Shown: one piece after another, positions 10,841 through 39,262 of the stretch
How the letters are laid out: each line of letters begins with the position of its first letter
How positions within the stretch are numbered: the stretch's first letter is position 1
DNA from: Bacteroidaceae bacterium
GTDB taxonomy: Bacteria; Bacteroidota; Bacteroidia; Bacteroidales; Bacteroidaceae
Direction of reading: 5' to 3'
Assembly (NCBI GenBank): GCA_017617575.1
Contig: JAFZVY010000027.1
Location: 1-39,262 of the forward strand
DNA: 39,262 nt
Notes under the pieces: model-generated
Told to the model about the DNA's origin: nothing
What the model saw: only the letters and a program-made list of their open reading frames with translations
Database searches by the model: none
Made by a program: the position numbers and the translations under genes

Positions 10841-10849
10841 AATAATGTA

Positions 10850-10944
10850 ATTGATAATTGACAATTGAGAATTGATAATTAGTTTTGAGAGAAGTGGAAC
10901 ATTTAAATCCTCATTACTGATTTCTCATTCCTCATTCCTAATTA
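10850..10944. repeat. two 7-nt-period arrays before ftsQ
   Basis: 10850-10877 holds four heptamers (ATTGATA, ATTGACA, ATTGAGA, ATTGATA). 10910-10944 holds five of different sequence (CTCATTA, CTGATTT, CTCATTC, CTCATTC, CTAATTA). The second array ends 15 nt before the ftsQ start. Confidence 0.75.
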
Positions 10945-19063: not shown

Positions 19064-19208
19064 TTAGAAATTAGTAATTAGTAATGAGTAATAGCCATTC
19101 GGCCCATATAACGCTAACTAGTTAATACTAAATTGTCATTATTAAAAGCCATTCGGCCCACATGAGGCTAACTAGTTATTACTAATTACTAATTACTCAT
19201 TTCTCATT
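19064..19208. repeat. heptamer arrays flanking a duplicated element (sufD-sufS spacer)
   Basis: 7-nt arrays lie at 19064-19091 (TTAGAAA, TTAGTAA, TTAGTAA, TGAGTAA) and 19174-19208 (AGTTATT, ACTAATT twice, ACTCATT, TCTCATT). They are roughly inverted with respect to each other. Between and partly over them, AGCCATTCGGCCCA...GCTAACTAGTTA occurs at 19093-19131 and again at 19147-19185, a 54-nt period. Confidence 0.8.
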
Positions 19209-20424
19209 ATTTACAGAGTCTGCAATCATCACATTTCTCAAGTTCGCCACGGAAACGCTTCTCAACCTTGACAAAGAGTTTGTCACGAAGAGGCTGAAGT
19301 TGTATCTGGTCGATGACCTGACCCATGAAAGCGTTCTTGAGAAGCATACGTGCTTCTTCCTCAGGCACACCTCTCTGTCGCATATAGAAGAGAGCCGTCT
19401 CGTCCATGACACCTACTGTAGAGCCGTGGGCACATTTCACGTCGTCAGCGTATATCTCAAGCATAGGTTGAGTGAACATACGAGCGTCGGCTGATGCACA
19501 CAGGTTAGAGTTGGTTTCGTGGCTCACGGTCTTCTGTGCATCCTTCTCTACAAGAATCTTACCAGCAAAAGCTCCTACTGACTTGTCATCTACGACGTAC
19601 TTGTATAGTTCGTTGGATGTACAGTTAGGTACACGATGGTCGATGAGAGTATTGTTGTCAATACGCTGGCTTCCACCTGCTATGGCGCAACCGTTGAGTG
19701 TTACCTCGGAGTTCTCGCCTTTGAGTACCACGTCGCAGAGGTTGCGTGTCTGACCGTTGTAGAGTGTTATGCTATTATGCTTGACCGTACAGTCGCGCTC
19801 CACATTTATATATACATTGGAGAATCGGCTACAGAGTGGGGTTGTCTCCTCTATCTCGTAGATGTCGAGGTGGCTGTTATCCTTGCAGAAAATCTCCATG
19901 ACCTGTGTCGTGAGGAAGCGTTGCTTGTCCTCGGCATGGTCATTCATTATGATGGTAGCTTCTGCTCCTTGCTCAAGAATGACCAAGACACGGCGGTTCA
20001 CCATTGTTGAAGTGTTGCCGCGAAGCCAGTTGTCAACCTGTATAGGGTCTTCGGCTCTCGTGTTTCTTGGCACGTAAATGACCAAGGCATCATGTGCAAT
20101 GGCAGTATTGAGGGCTGTGATGCCGTCATTATTATCTGCTATTGTGTTGTAGTATGCTGATAGGTCTATTGGTGACTCGGCAAGACGGAAGATGTACTTT
20201 GAAGGCTTAACCTCAAGTGTGTTGAGCGACACACCATAGTTAGGCGCGAAATAAGCATCCACGTCCGTGTACTTATATCGCTCCACCTTCTTGGAAGGAA
20301 ATCCCACCTTCTCAAACGAAGCGAATGCGGCATCACGAACATTGTTCATAATGTCGCAACTCTTCTGCTTGATAAGGTTGCTTACCTCACCATAGAGTTC
20401 TATATATTGCTGTTCACTTTTCAT
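19207..20424 (-). CDS. sufD: Fe-S cluster assembly protein SufD
   Basis: SufD joins SufB and the ATPase SufC to form the SufBC2D scaffold that builds and transfers Fe-S clusters. At 405 aa it is typical of SufD. It starts MKSEQQYIELYGEV, has the GFPSKKVERYKYTD region near residue 40, a beta-helix core (for example EGAEATIIMNDHA, VTLNGCAIAGG), and the SufB/SufD C-terminal block VKCAHGSTVGVMDETALFYMRQRGVPEEEARMLLKNAFM. It is less conserved than SufB and pairs with sufC upstream through a 42-nt spacer holding a perfect 22-nt palindrome. Confidence 0.94.
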   Translation of the reverse strand: MKSEQQYIELYGEVSNLIKQKSCDIMNNVRDAAFASFEKVGFPSKKVERYKYTDVDAYFAPNYGVSLNTLEVKPSKYIFRLAESPIDLSAYYNTIADNNDGITALNTAIAHDALVIYVPRNTRAEDPIQVDNWLRGNTSTMVNRRVLVILEQGAEATIIMNDHAEDKQRFLTTQVMEIFCKDNSHLDIYEIEETTPLCSRFSNVYINVERDCTVKHNSITLYNGQTRNLCDVVLKGENSEVTLNGCAIAGGSQRIDNNTLIDHRVPNCTSNELYKYVVDDKSVGAFAGKILVEKDAQKTVSHETNSNLCASADARMFTQPMLEIYADDVKCAHGSTVGVMDETALFYMRQRGVPEEEARMLLKNAFMGQVIDQIQLQPLRDKLFVKVEKRFRGELEKCDDCRLCK

Positions 20425-20436
20425 AATTTGAGTTTT

Positions 20437-20458
20437 TGAGTACCGAGCTCGGTACTCA
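20437..20458. repeat. perfect palindrome in the sufC-sufD spacer
   Basis: An uninterrupted 22-nt palindrome centred on CCGAGCTCGG, with arms TGAGTA/TACTCA, begins 8 nt past the sufC stop and ends 13 nt before the sufD start. It could be a protein-binding site or an intercistronic mRNA hairpin. Confidence 0.85.
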
Positions 20459-23382: not shown

Positions 23383-23391
23383 ATTCTTTTG

Positions 23392-23553
23392 AGTTTGTTA
23401 GTTTTTAAGTTTATAAGTTTTTATGTTCTCGCGGAAATACCATCAAGCTAAGAACTTTAAAAAAATCGCTATTCGGTTTCTAATTTCTTATGTTCTCGCG
23501 GAAATTGCAATAGAACTAAAAAACTCAAAAACTTACGAACTTACAAACTTAAA
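23392..23553. repeat. inverted octamer arrays around a duplicated 18-mer (infB-cvpA spacer)
   Basis: 23392-23423 holds four octamers (AGTTTGTT, AGTTTTTA, AGTTTATA, AGTTTTTA). 23514-23553 holds five of the complementary type (AACTAAAA, AACTCAAA, AACTTACG, AACTTACA, AACTTAAA). Between them TTATGTTCTCGCGGAAAT occurs exactly twice, at 23421-23438 and 23488-23505. Confidence 0.8.
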
Positions 23554-23557
23554 AGTC

Positions 23558-26410
23558 TTACAATTTTGCCTTAACCTCAACCTCTGTGTATGTCTCAAGG
23601 ATATCACCCTCGCGGATGTCGTTGTAGTTAACGATTGAGATACCACAGTCGAAGTCACGACCAACTTCCTTGACGTCGTCCTTGAAGCGCTTGAGGGCGA
23701 GGATTTCACCTGTGTGAACAACGATACCGTCACGAATAACGCGAATCTTGTCTGAACGGTGAATCTTACCATCAGTAACCCATGCACCAGCAACAGTACC
23801 GACCTTTGTAATCTTGTAAACCTGACGAACCTCTGCCTGACCTGTGTTCTCTTCCTTGACTGTTGGTGCAAGCATACCCTCCATGGCGTCTGTAATCTGC
23901 TCGATACAGTCGTAGATGATAGAGTAGAGACGGATGTCCACACCTGCCTGGTCAGCAAGCTTGCGTGCAGCAGCTGAAGGACGAACCTGGAATCCGATGA
24001 TGATTGCGTCTGAAGCCTCTGCAAGAGTTACATCGCTCTCTGAGATTGCACCCACAGCCTTGTGGATGACGTTGACCTGAATCTTCTCTGTAGAGAGCTT
24101 GATGAGTGAGTCGGAGAGTGCCTCGATAGAACCGTCCACGTCACCCTTGACGATAAGGTTAAGCTCCTTGAAGTCGCCAAGTGCGATACGACGTCCAAGC
24201 TCGTTGAGGTCAACACGCTTGAGGGTACGGAGACCCTGCTCGCGCTTGAGCTGCTCACGCTTGTTACAAATCTCACGAGCCTCCTGCTCTGTCTCCATTG
24301 TGTGGAATGTATCACCTGCTGTAGGTGCTCCGTTGAGACCGAGGATAACGGCTGGCTCTGCTGGGAGAGCCTGCTGGATGCGCTGTCCACGCTCGTTGAA
24401 CATAGCCTTGATACGTCCGTAGTGAGTACCTGCGAGTACGATGTCACCCTGATGGAGAGTACCATTGCTTACGAGTACTGTTGCTACGTAACCACGACCC
24501 TTGTCGAGAGTTGACTCGATGATTGAACCTGTTGCCTTACGGTTAGGGTTAGCCTTGAGGTCGAGCATCTCAGCTTCGAGGAGTACCTTCTCCATAAGCT
24601 CAGCTACTCCGATACCCTGCTTTGCAGAGATTTCCTGACACTGGTACTTACCACCCCAATCCTCCACGAGGAGGTTCATGGCAGCAAGCTGCTCGCGAAT
24701 CTTATCTGGGTTAGCTCCTGGCTTATCAATCTTGTTGATGGCGAATACCATAGGTACGCCTGCTGCCTGTGCGTGAGCAATAGCCTCCTTTGTCTGAGGC
24801 ATGATTGCGTCGTCGGCAGCAACGATGATGATGGCGATATCCGTTACCTGAGCACCACGGGCACGCATGGCTGTGAACGCCTCGTGACCCGGAGTATCGA
24901 GGAATGTGATGTGACGGCCGTCAGACATCTTCACGTTGTAGGCACCGATGTGCTGAGTGATACCACCAGCCTCACCTGCGATGACGTTTGTCTTGCGGAT
25001 GTAGTCGAGGAGTGAAGTCTTACCGTGGTCAACGTGTCCCATCACGGTGATGATAGGAGCACGGCTCTCAAGGTCTTCCTCCTTGTCCTCTTCCTCAACG
25101 ATGGCGTTGGAAACTTCCTCACTCACGTAGTTAGTTGTGAAGCCGAACTCCTCTGCTACGATGTTGATTGTCTCGGCATCAAGACGCTGGTTGATACTTA
25201 CCATCATACCGATAGCCATACATGTACCGATAACCTTGTTGACAGGTACGTCCATCATAGTGGCGAGGTCACTTACAGTCACGAACTCAGTAAGCTTGAG
25301 TACCTTGCTCTCTGCGTTCTCCAACTCTTCCTCCTCAGACATACGCTCGCGTGCTGCGTTACGCTTGTCCTTACGGTACTTGACTGCCTTCTTTTCCTGC
25401 TTGGTAGTAAGACGAGCAAGAGTCTCCTTAACCTGCTTTGCTACCTCTTCGTCAGTGAGCTCAACAGGCTTCTGTGGCTGCTTGTTCTTTTTCTTCTTGC
25501 CCTGGTTAGGCTGGTTAGCGTTGCCGCCACCGTTGTTGTTCTTATTCTTGCCTTGGTTTGGCTGGTTGGCGTTATTGTTGTTGCCACCGCCACCATTATT
25601 GTTCTTTTTCTTCTTGCCCTGGTTCTGCTGGCTCTGCTCCTTTGCAGCAGCTTCAACGTCCACGCGCTGGTTGTTCATACGGTTACGCTTCTTCTTCTCA
25701 CCGTTCTCACCGTTCTTCTCGTTGCGCTCCTTCTTCTTCTCTGCCTTGCTCTTGCGGTCAGGGCGAGTCTTTGAGTTGAGGCTTGAGAGGTCGATGAATC
25801 CAACCTGCTTGAACTGTACGCTTGGCTCCTGTGGTGCAGAGAGACGGTAAACGCCGTCCTCAGTCATCTCAAGACGGTCGCTTACGCTCTTCTTTGTCTT
25901 GTCTGACTCAGGTGCAGGAGTGACAGTAGCAACTGGAGTTGCCTCTGGCTTTGTTTCTTTAACTGCGGCAGGTGCCTCTTTTGCAACTTCCTTCACAGCT
26001 TCCTTGACTACTTCAGTAGCCTTGGCAGGAGCAGGTGCCTGAGCCTTCTCCTCCTCAGCCTTCTTGCCGTCGTTGATGTTGCCGACAACCTTGAGCTGAA
26101 GCTTCTGCTTCTCAGCGTTGAGACGGAAAATCTCCTGTTCCTTGCGGAGCTTCTCCTCGCGGTTCTTCTCCTTGAGTTCCTTCTTTTCCTGCTTCTCACG
26201 CTCCTTGCGCTCAAGAATCTTCTGCTGAGTCTCGTCATGCTTGTTCTTGTCGTCGCCGAAAGCACTCATAAGCAACTTGTATTGCTCATCCGTGATCTTT
26301 GCGTTAGGGCTGGCGTCCTCAAGAGCCTGTCCCTTCTTCTGTAGGAATTCTGCCACGGTGTTGATTCCTACATTGAGTTCCTTTAATGCTTTATTTAGTC
26401 TTACTGCCAT
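23558..26410 (-). CDS. infB: translation initiation factor IF-2
   Basis: IF-2 is the GTPase that brings initiator fMet-tRNA to the 30S subunit and promotes subunit joining. The product is 950 aa. The N-terminal IF2_N domain ([25 protein letters not shown]) starts at residue 3. A long charged, low-complexity region (~60-330) includes KEKR-rich helices and repeats of NQPNQGK(N/K)K with poly-Asn/Gly. A second IF2_N-like unit ([20 protein letters not shown]) follows. The G domain has GHVDHGKT at ~458-465, DTPGHEAF and NKID. The C-terminal domains hold [22 protein letters not shown] and the fMet-tRNA-binding C2 region. The middle region is the most variable part, as usual. Confidence 0.97.
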
Positions 26411-26419
26411 CTTTTCTTG

Positions 26420-26541
26420 TTTAGTGTTTAGTGTTTAGAGTTTAGAGACCTTTACTGTTAAGCCAAATCGTGTTGGGGTTTAATGAGTGAATAGAGTAAA
26501 GTCTCTCAACTCTAAGCACTCATCTCTCATCTTTCATAAGA
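26420..26541. repeat. 7-nt-period arrays in the nusA-infB spacer
   Basis: 26420-26447 holds TTTAGTG twice then TTTAGAG twice. 26507-26541 holds five heptamers (CAACTCT, AAGCACT, CATCTCT, CATCTTT, CATAAGA). The first lies ten bases upstream of the infB start on the minus strand. Confidence 0.75.
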
Positions 26542-27903: not shown

Positions 27904-27936
27904 TTAGGGAACCTTTAGGGAACCTTAACGAAGGAT
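27904..27936. repeat. 11-nt-period array (3 units) between rimP and nusA
   Basis: TTAGGGAACCT occurs twice in exact tandem (27904-27925), followed by a degenerate TAACGAAGGAT. It fits the 11-mer family seen at 995, 30428, 38290 and 38889. Confidence 0.7.
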
Positions 27937-29575: not shown

Positions 29576-29636
29576 TCTCAAGTCTCAAATTTATAATTTA
29601 TGCGTCCCGATATGAGCCGGAGGCATAAATTTGACA
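29576..29636. repeat. hairpin element, copy 2 (VTC-DUF4956 spacer)
   Basis: AATTTATGCGTCC (29595-29607) pairs with GGAGGCATAAATT (29619-29631) with one mismatch. The left flank TCTCAAGTCTCAAATTT matches the element at 9320-9383. Confidence 0.65.
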
Positions 29637-29693
29637 TGATAGATTTCACATTATACTAAACGAATTATTAACTAAAAAAATTACTACAATACA

Positions 29694-30392: not shown

Positions 30393-30427
30393 TCTTCAAT
30401 TTTCAGTAGGAAGAAAGTACTGACTAT

Positions 30428-30460
30428 TATGAGACTCATATGAGACTTGTATGAGACTCT
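30428..30460. repeat. 11-nt-period array (3 units) after the DUF4956 gene
   Basis: TATGAGACTCA, TATGAGACTTG and TATGAGACTCT lie in exact tandem. The same word in reverse complement makes up part of the array at 995-1049. Confidence 0.85.
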
Positions 30461-38229: not shown

Positions 38230-38269
38230 TTATTTATAAGCCGCACAACAGTTTTTCCTTGTATTTCTC

Positions 38270-38332
38270 TTATGTTCCCTTATCATCTGTAAGAGAACGT
38301 AAGGGAAACATAAGAACTCATATGATAAGAGG
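38270..38332. repeat. 11-nt-period units overlapping a hairpin after the regulator gene
   Basis: TAAGAGAACG, TAAGGGAAACA, TAAGAACTCAT and ATGATAAGAGG follow each other at 10-11 nt (38290-38332). CTTATGTTCCCTTA upstream (~38271-38284) pairs with TAAGGGAAACATAAG with one bulge. Confidence 0.6.
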
Positions 38333-38369
38333 CAAAACGTAAATTCTTACGTTTTGCCTCTTTTGTTTG
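38328..38369 (+). terminator. intrinsic terminator after the regulator gene
   Basis: AGAGGCAAAACGTAA (38328-38342) and TTACGTTTTGCCTCT (38347-38361) form a perfect 15-bp stem with a 4-nt loop and a TTTGTTTG tail. Confidence 0.92.
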
Positions 38370-38888
38370 ATGTATTGCCGTAATTAACCAACATCAAATG
38401 TAATTCCTATTTTGACTACTGTTCATATGTGAATATATATGTCTATCGGATTCATAAAATACGATAAGTATGAGGTACAAGAATGCATACGCTATTGTCC
38501 TTTAAAATACGTGGAAATTGGTAATTTTTTCGTGCGCGTAGAAAAAATTTTTTGTACGCGTACAAAATTAATTTTGTTCGAGAAGCAAATATTTTTTTGT
38601 CGCGTGCAATTTTTGAAAATCTCGCCAAACAGAATTTTTATGACGCAAAATTTACGATAAGTCATCCCTAAGGTCGTGAAAAGAAATCGTACAAAAAGAA
38701 CAAATGTATGGTTTGATTCCTCATTCCCTTGAAAGTCTTAAACGCTATTGCTCATTGCTAATTACTTCACTATGGATGATGAATCTTCTTCGCTTAGTAG
38801 TAAATAGCAAATTATCACTTGTTTTTCTACAGATTATTTGTTGTCTTTTCGTTGTGATTACGTTGTGGCTCCGCTTTCTCTACTATAA
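38370..38888. other. non-coding AT-rich spacer with CGCG palindromes
   Basis: No convincing gene is present. 38527-38610 holds three GC-cored sites set in A/T tracts: CGTGCGCGTA (38531), an 18-nt perfect palindrome centred on GTACGCGTAC (38550-38567), and GTCGCGTGC (38599). A 14-nt palindrome CAAAATTAATTTTG overlaps the second (38563-38576). Small hydrophobic frames here overlap repeats and are not supported. Confidence 0.5.
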
Positions 38889-38954
38889 TAGTAGAGCCAT
38901 AGCGAACTCACTTCGGACTCACTACGGAGTCATAGCGAAGTCATGATGGAGACA
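38889..38954. repeat. 11-nt-period array (6 units)
   Basis: TAGTAGAGCCA, TAGCGAACTCA, CTTCGGACTCA, CTACGGAGTCA, TAGCGAAGTCA and TGATGGAGACA lie in exact tandem. This is the longest 11-nt array of the window. The units differ at several positions but keep length and the (G/A)-A-(C/G)-T-C-A end. Confidence 0.85.
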
Positions 38955-39042
38955 GGGCAAATGTAAAACGTAAAGTGGATGGAAATTGAAAAAATGACTT
39001 TCTTAATTGAAGTCAAAAAAATAATCTTTTTTGCTGTTATTG

Positions 39043-39150: not shown

Positions 39151-39262
39151 ATGAATAATAACTCTTTAAATATCAAGAAAAATTTTGTTTCGACAGCAAG
39201 AAAAGTTGCTGGAATGTTTGCATATTTCATAAAAATGTGTAACAATACAATACAATACAATA
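39151..39262 (+). CDS. start of an unidentified gene, cut by the window edge
   Basis: An ATG at 39151 opens a frame that stays open to the last base (37 codons: MNNNSLNIKKNFVSTARKVA, then GMFAYFIKMCNNTIQYN). A canonical promoter lies at the right distance upstream, supporting a real gene. The N-terminus is basic with a weak hydrophobic patch (GMFAYFI) and is not a clear signal peptide. The last visible codons are made of an ACAAT repeat that runs out of the window. I do not recognise the protein. The true start could lie further right. Confidence 0.5.
   Translation, partial: MNNNSLNIKKNFVSTARKVAGMFAYFIKMCNNTIQYN
39242..39262. repeat. ACAAT pentanucleotide repeat at window edge
   Basis: Four complete ACAAT units (39242-39261) plus the first base of a fifth reach the end of the window. 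The total copy number is unknown. Confidence 0.8.

Follow-up and report, generated by a model that had tools for sequence, protein, structure and literature searches.

Cyanobacterial STRRs are intergenic short direct repeats with a 7-nt unit, and the long simple sequence repeats are reportedly a class of genome statistics, defined without hairpin arms, element ends or dispersed families. Units of the latter measure 5-11 nt (Mrazek 2007, through PMC4679880), and the class covers 7-11 nt units in bacterial genomes. The TAACTGA heptamer arrays, which occur in Beggiatoaceae, cyanobacteria and five Bacteroidetes and, in the principal genome of that account, for the most part directly precede start codons, are likewise intergenic short direct repeats found at many loci with a fixed unit length; however, their 7-nt unit is of fixed sequence (PMC4679880), whereas the 7-nt arrays of the genome studied here form a looser set. 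REPs and REPINs, which are associated with RAYT transposases (PMC2817692, PMC3116915, PMC3733652), are non-autonomous intergenic palindromic repeats as well, but they are palindromes of 20-40 bp rather than arrays of 11-nt units. BrickBuilt, a MITE of P. gingivalis, encloses a minisatellite of 23-nt units and is predicted to form stem loops; it has leader and tail regions, GAGACC.. ends resembling those of the IS5-family element ISPg1, a 4-nt target duplication and 19 copies (PMC4596501). A limited phrase search of the literature, covering titles and the starts of abstracts, found no description of a family of intergenic 11-nt arrays.

BrickBuilt is the nearest described system to the arrays analysed here, similar in build and different in unit, ends and duplication. 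Both are found in Bacteroidales, are intergenic, and place a minisatellite within a short non-coding element with TIRs and long predicted stem loops; further points of likeness are that BrickBuilt is strain-variable and carries a nested MITE at one site (PMC4596501). By contrast, the units described below are 11 nt long, occupy both arms and fall into several sequence families, and the one resolved family, that of AAGGAGTTAAA, has approximately 9-bp duplications and TCAAGTTT ends, which differ from GAGACC.

The window, that is, the whole stretch of 39,262 nt that was analysed, constitutes the complete contig C92 (JAFZVY010000027.1) of a Bacteroidaceae assembly (GCA_017617575.1) that comprises 3.38 Mb in 162 contigs and is 86% complete. 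The NusA protein is 84-85% identical to those of the five nearest public loci, which come from uncultured assemblies mostly filed under Bacteroidales/Bacteroidaceae, with several titles naming ruminant hosts, and 76% identical to that of Segatella copri. A comparison of the segment 26411-31000 with plasmid records yielded no match. We compared this genome (G000) with that of a sister species (G037), in which the DUF4956 protein is identical and the syntenic blocks are 65-93% identical. Five spacers of the window had been predicted to carry 11-nt arrays; the features considered here are the following.

A1, 995-1049: about five units of 11 nt, read on the minus strand, TATGAGACTAA TTAGGGACTCA TTAGGGAGGTA TATGAGACTAT TATGAGAGATA
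A2, 27904-27936: between rimP and nusA, three units of 11 nt, TTAGGGAACCT twice and TAACGAAGGAT
A3, 30415-30458, plus strand: four units after the DUF4956 gene, AAGTACTGACT ATTATGAGACT CATATGAGACT TGTATGAGACT
A4, 38260-38332, ends approximate: inverted repeat with units of about 10 nt, TTCTCTTATGTTCCCTTATC / GTAAGAGAACGTAAGGGAAACATAAG
38328-38364, plus strand: terminator-like strong stem with a T-run just after A4, read directly, the stem being present in the fold of 38230-38400
38455-38715: dispersed repeat with a 22-nt palindromic core (TTTTTTGTACGCGTACAAAA-like), in the same spacer as A5
A5 left arm, 38840-38888: decayed inverted 11-nt units, read directly, GTTGTCTTTTC GTTGTGATTAC GTTGTGGCTCC GCTTTCTCTAC TATAA
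A5 right arm, 38889-38954: six 11-nt units, TAGTAGAGCCA TAGCGAACTCA CTTCGGACTCA CTACGGAGTCA TAGCGAAGTCA TGATGGAGACA

The genes next to the arrays are ordinary (nusA and rimP at A2, the DUF4956 gene at A3), and A4 and A5 follow the gene of a protein that combines Reg_prop and AraC-type domains. When the lag-11 match in each predicted interval was set against the best equal-length window of dinucleotide-shuffled spacers, the 11-nt period held at four of the five sites. The A5 match of 0.64 was equalled in none of 1000 shuffles, and in none of 300 when any lag from 5 to 22 was allowed; for A3, the match over 30428-30460 was 0.82 (0/1000 and 1/300, respectively), and direct reading gives this array four units, at 30415-30458. 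A1 (0.59; 4/1000) and A2 (0.73; 0/1000) lose much weight once any lag from 5 to 22 is allowed (16/300 and 56/300, respectively). The fifth site, A4, has a period of about 10 nt instead: over 38290-38332, its lag-11 match of 0.31 was equalled by all 1000 shuffles, and its lag-10 match is 0.52. In A1, A2, A3 and A5, the lag-7 match is just 0.12-0.20 and the peak lies at lag 11, and the 7-nt unit of the STRRs and heptamer arrays is not found in them.

A5 proved to be a 115-nt inverted pair (38840-38954), the arms of which face each other around TACTATAATAGTA; its inverted partner scores 14 versus a shuffle maximum of 12 (0/200). The predicted RNA fold of 38820-38960 reaches -48.2 kcal/mol, and the hairpin is weak as single-stranded DNA (z -1.9, versus z -6.9 for a AAGGAGTTAAA element). 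A4 also has an inverted partner (2/200 shuffles as good), and none was found in their own spacers for A1 (87/200 shuffles equally good), A2 or A3. The original prediction contained neither the inverted pairs at A4 and A5 nor the observation, detailed below, that A5 and units of the AAGTACTGACT type belong to repeats with copies elsewhere. With the bar placed three points above the best of 20 shuffles, inverted partners in the same spacer accompany 128 of 323 arrays in the genome under study and 123 of 308 in the sister species, versus 45 and 43 arrays with a direct partner; the corresponding figures for smaller sets are 64/176 and 72/168, versus 26 and 23. Among 11-nt arrays, 25/47 and 19/52, respectively, have an inverted partner.

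Periodicity extends far beyond these five sites. The spacers of the window show local hot spots at lags 7, 8, 11 and 22, together with a few others, whereas shuffles show almost none. A sample of 236 kb from the same genome (137 spacers) holds 36 hot runs at lag 7, 10 at lag 8, 20 at lag 10, 21 at lag 11 and 19 at lag 22, against 0.0-0.3 expected per lag; the anticipated excess of 11-nt autocorrelation over shuffled spacers is thus borne out (21 versus 0.1). The first samples of this genome were chosen by contig number, and the simple longest-ORF rule used for gene calling leaves spacer edges rough. In a less biased sample of 484 kb, with 268 spacers and 72 kb of spacer DNA, there are 176 arrays, as compared to approximately four per shuffle (22 hits in total, before overlap removal, in five shuffles of the 268 spacers); the unit measures 11 nt in 23 of these arrays and 10 nt in 13, and 112/268 spacers (approximately 42%, sampled by contig number) hold at least one. 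An enlarged set of 476 spacers (135 kb) contains 323 arrays, of which 87 have 7-nt, 27 8-nt, 13 9-nt, 24 10-nt, 47 11-nt and 29 22-nt units, with two each at 12 and 13 nt. Unit lengths peak at 7-8, 10-11 and 21-24 nt, with next to nothing at 12-13, and 11 nt cannot be singled out as a special period: arrays of 7-8 nt are commoner and those of 21-24 nt nearly as common (0.84, 0.53 and 0.44 arrays per spacer kb for the 7-8, 10-11 and 21-24 nt classes, respectively).

Array density per spacer kb is 2.39 in this genome, 2.64 in the sister species, 1.67 in 20 congeners (one stretch from each genome), 0.75 in 75 public-record Bacteroidales loci and 0.11 in E. coli (two 50-kb stretches, with one array in 46 spacers); the later sample of the genome under study and both sister samples include match-selected regions, which biases their densities upward. 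For 10-11 nt arrays alone, the respective densities are 0.53, 0.66, 0.12, 0.05 and 0. Hence, arrays of 7-8 and of 21-24 nt occur widely across the order as sampled, whereas this pair of sister species is several-fold enriched in those of 10-11 nt.

The expectation that unit length stays constant while sequence differs was supported: counting unit families apart if they are more than 28% different under any rotation or strand, we found 16 unlike families at exactly 11 nt. There are 12 such families at 7 nt, four at 8, 10 at 10, three at 12 and two at 13 nt, and, among longer units, 14 at 21, 25 at 22, 19 at 23 and 11 at 24 nt, the calls at 21-24 nt being less firm, with copy numbers near 2. Contrary to a clean quantisation, there are also eight families (19 arrays) at 9 nt and seven families with eight arrays each at 15 and at 19 nt. 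Period 22 as a doubled 11 was considered and rejected, given that the halves are at least 60% alike in only 24% of 58 units; the 22-nt units are mostly a class of their own, whereas periods 14, 16 and 20 look mostly like doubled 7, 8 and 10. Arrays of 7 and 8 nt are also present in the window, at 10848-10943, 19064-19209, 23387-23563 and 26418-26537, several of them in inverted pairs, and 21 of 22 8-nt arrays from both species fall into one unit cluster, AACTTAAA. A perfect 20-bp palindrome, GAGTACCGAGCTCGGTACTC, lies at 20438-20457, and the orthologous place in the sister species is occupied by an 8-nt inverted-array hairpin instead.

The five arrays had been ascribed to one family with a common core. 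Removal of redundancy from the 99 11-nt arrays of the two species leaves 16 units, the best joint alignment of which, over rotations and strands, reaches 5.98 bits, versus 5.95 ± 0.23 for letter-shuffled units; since the non-redundancy filter itself disfavours finding a core, this test leans against the common-core claim. A single core for all 11-nt units was accordingly rejected, and the claim falls on its own terms, namely, that the core should not vanish when more loci are added. A GACTCA-like core is common to TATGAGACTCA, TAGCGGACTCA and, partly, AAGTACTGACT units, and TATGAGACTCA and AAGTACTGACT units are also mixed within single arrays, but AAGGAGTTAAA, TTAACGAAGGG, TTAGGGAACCT and further units show no sign of it. 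The pattern GGGACTCAN{0,10}GACTCA had no match in the genome under study (one for the reversed control).

Among the window families, those of A5 and of the AAGTACTGACT units in A3 are evidently dispersed; in the sampled sequences, A1 and A2 have few related arrays, and A4 has one weak match. The A5 region (38838-38960) has 22 matches in its own genome, itself included and mostly partial, and nine in the sister species, with no match in six other congeners (E 0.001). The arrays of this family decay gradually, which blurs their ends (16 loci with flanks, L296 and L297 left out). Arrays of AAGTACTGACT units have 15 matches in their own genome, at least 41 in the sister species and one across the six other congeners, and often share flanks outside the array, for instance, TGAACTTTAGGACAA. 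Near-identical multi-unit arrays with common flanks recur at many loci. A1 has relatives at L020:5841-5882, where the identity is 81% over 42 nt, and in L147, stretches related to A2 are found in L174, L148, L160, L178 and L155, and the single weak match of A4 is in L154 (E 0.002).

Other repeats adjoin these arrays. The repeat at 38455-38715 has dozens of matches in the sister species and 58 in the sampled sequences, some of which are other-strand self-matches; the arrangement of the window, with a repeat of this type upstream of an A5-type array, recurs in L175. Elsewhere, composite islands bring A5-type arrays next to palindromic 22-nt arrays of other kinds (ACGTACTGGGAGTACGCTCGCC; CAGACTATCGATAGTTCGTTTG):

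L020:4360-4620, composite island
L149:1040-1300, composite island
L299, L301, L305 and L309, composite islands

At 29590-29690, the window carries a member of a dispersed hairpin-like family, TTTATGCGTCCCGA ... GGCATAAATTTGA, with 17 matches in the sampled sequences, a weak relative of which is found inside a AAGGAGTTAAA element (L004 656-757). The contig ends in an ACAAT microsatellite (39242-39262), probably the point where the assembly stopped.

The AAGGAGTTAAA family, which lies outside the window, provides the clearest view of how such arrays are packaged. It yields at least 97 alignments in G000 and at least 35 in G037 from 40 scored candidates per genome, counts that include both arms and both strands, and its right-end pattern, with up to two mismatches, has 33 and eight matches, respectively (zero and one for the reversed control). 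Full-length copies were picked by the ends TCAAGTTT/AAACTTGA, which were first spotted by eye and form part of the search pattern, with mismatches allowed. There are 23 (20 in G000 and three in the sister species), measuring 181-357 bp, some with nested inserts. Direct repeats of at least 7 bp flank 15/23 copies, as compared to 4.7% of mismatched flank pairs, and the mean flanking repeat is 7.39 versus 4.35 ± 0.22 in permuted pairs; 8/23 copies lack a repeat of this length. L269 and L273, both counted among the 23, represent one orthologous site common to the two species, indicating that at least one insertion predates their split. Across 41 arrays, 93 units follow AGTTAAA..G., three positions of which lie at 0.40-0.56, a positional conservation that is biased because the arrays were chosen by similarity to a reference.

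In G000, 19/29 left ends pair with a same-strand right end within 6 kb; the distance is 195-357 bp in 18 of these pairs and 1456 bp in the remaining one. The latter pair encloses an O-methyltransferase-like gene, and its right end also belongs to a nearer copy. Ten left and 15 right ends are unpaired, some of them at contig ends. The elements carry no transposase gene, being too short to hold one, and no pair of AAGGAGTTAAA ends was found around a transposase in G000, an 86% complete assembly, where the domain scan near unpaired ends covered the L335 ORF; ends common to the family and an autonomous insertion sequence were not found in this genome, although, with unpaired ends and part of the assembly missing, a parent element may exist. 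With TIRs, target duplications of approximately 9 bp, short length and dispersal, the AAGGAGTTAAA family is MITE-like. Terminal repeats and target duplications were established for this family only, not for those of A1, A2, A3 and A5, and none of the window families offered a clear example of an empty site carrying one copy of the target.

Comparison of the sister species points to rapid turnover, with marked differences in the size and location of the element families. Among the 67 orthologous spacers obtained from 440 spacers of G000 and the sampled part of the sister genome, 31 differ by more than 60 bp, several of them by whole elements, and 16 by no more than 5 bp. At the A5 locus of the sister species, different genes follow the shared sensor gene. 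After four short pairs were dropped and spacers were cut at 600 nt, 63 pairs entered a hairpin comparison: in the 33 low-identity pairs, hairpin strength is uncorrelated (Spearman 0.13, p 0.46), a strong hairpin being present in both species in nine pairs, in one only in 15 and in neither in nine, and conservation of hairpins at orthologous positions was rejected. The constancy of unit length had been taken to suggest selection on spacing; such selection does not emerge from these data, in which an array or hairpin of one sister species is often absent from the other.

The 11-nt arrays look like parts of copied, often hairpin-forming repeats rather than one new regulatory motif. We consider it rather probable that they form the minisatellite interior of small non-coding elements that are dispersed between genes and belong to several families, the best resolved of which is MITE-like. 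A AAGGAGTTAAA element has TIRs, two inverted arrays of about four 11-nt units that would form a long stem, and a variable centre that can carry nested inserts. Movement would occur in trans through a transposase recognising the ends, and the iterated units might help as its binding sites. Unit number would change through slippage, units are replaced in phase, as seen at the orthologous A2 and A3 sites, and the elements would be tolerated best in co-directional spacers. Transposition is, by extension from the analysed family, the putative origin of all five window arrays.

Rather less likely, both the arrays and the hairpins are formed locally, through replication slippage and template switching at quasi-palindromes, and similar families result from local mutation and gene conversion, with no transposition involved. 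Polymerase slippage has been proposed earlier, along with heptamer enrichment, for bacterial repeats (Mrazek 2007, as related in PMC4679880). Such an origin is consistent with the absence of detected ends and of inverted partners at A1, A2 and A3, and with the behaviour of A2 and A3 in the sister species, where, by eye, the phase is kept and the units are replaced (those at A3 being AAGTACTGACT and CATGAGACT there), in keeping with the predicted combination of fixed length and drifting sequence. At the A3 locus of 28 other congeners, no such 11-nt array was seen by eye, and one of them (L130) has a 7-nt array. However, the fixed ends and target duplications of the AAGGAGTTAAA family, the recurrence of near-identical multi-unit arrays with shared flanks and the very unlike family sizes in the two sister species all argue against formation in place.

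The MITE-like model leaves the unit lengths common to unlike families without explanation. The favoured lengths are near two thirds, one and two helical turns, and it is this concentration across unrelated families that may surprise a specialist. An unlikely reading is that a length-measuring process sets the period at about 7-8, 10-11 or 21-24 nt, while the sequence drifts and is swapped in phase; candidates for the measuring device are the footprint of a polymerase or another protein, or a transposase needing phased sites. The unlike unit families may also descend from common ancestors.

It appears very improbable that the arrays serve, each as a set of helically phased sites, to bind a protein involved in regulation or chromosome organisation. 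A unit of 11 nt does approximate one helical turn, and some positions of the AAGGAGTTAAA units are nearly fixed and others free, albeit in arrays picked by similarity, but the 16 units have no core in common, and the 7-8 nt arrays, which keep no helical face, are commoner. Furthermore, the presence of arrays is poorly conserved between the sister species, and array density in the two species peaks in co-directional spacers, at 2.9 and 3.1 per kb, and is at its minimum, 1.4 and 1.9 per kb, in divergent ones, where regulators would act; such scarcity is expected if insertions near promoters are lost. No more credible are functional RNA hairpins, that is, terminators or mRNA 3' stabilisers that keep the hairpin while the sequence drifts: strong predicted RNA hairpins and the higher density in co-directional and convergent spacers agree with this function, but hairpin strength does not correlate between orthologous spacers, the window has no Rfam match at the gathering threshold, and A4 already adjoins a separate terminator-like stem.

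Being present in approximately 42% of the sampled spacers, with fast turnover between sister species, the arrays shape the intergenic DNA of this lineage. Should a measuring mechanism indeed operate, comparison of strains would show how bacterial minisatellites are born and copied.
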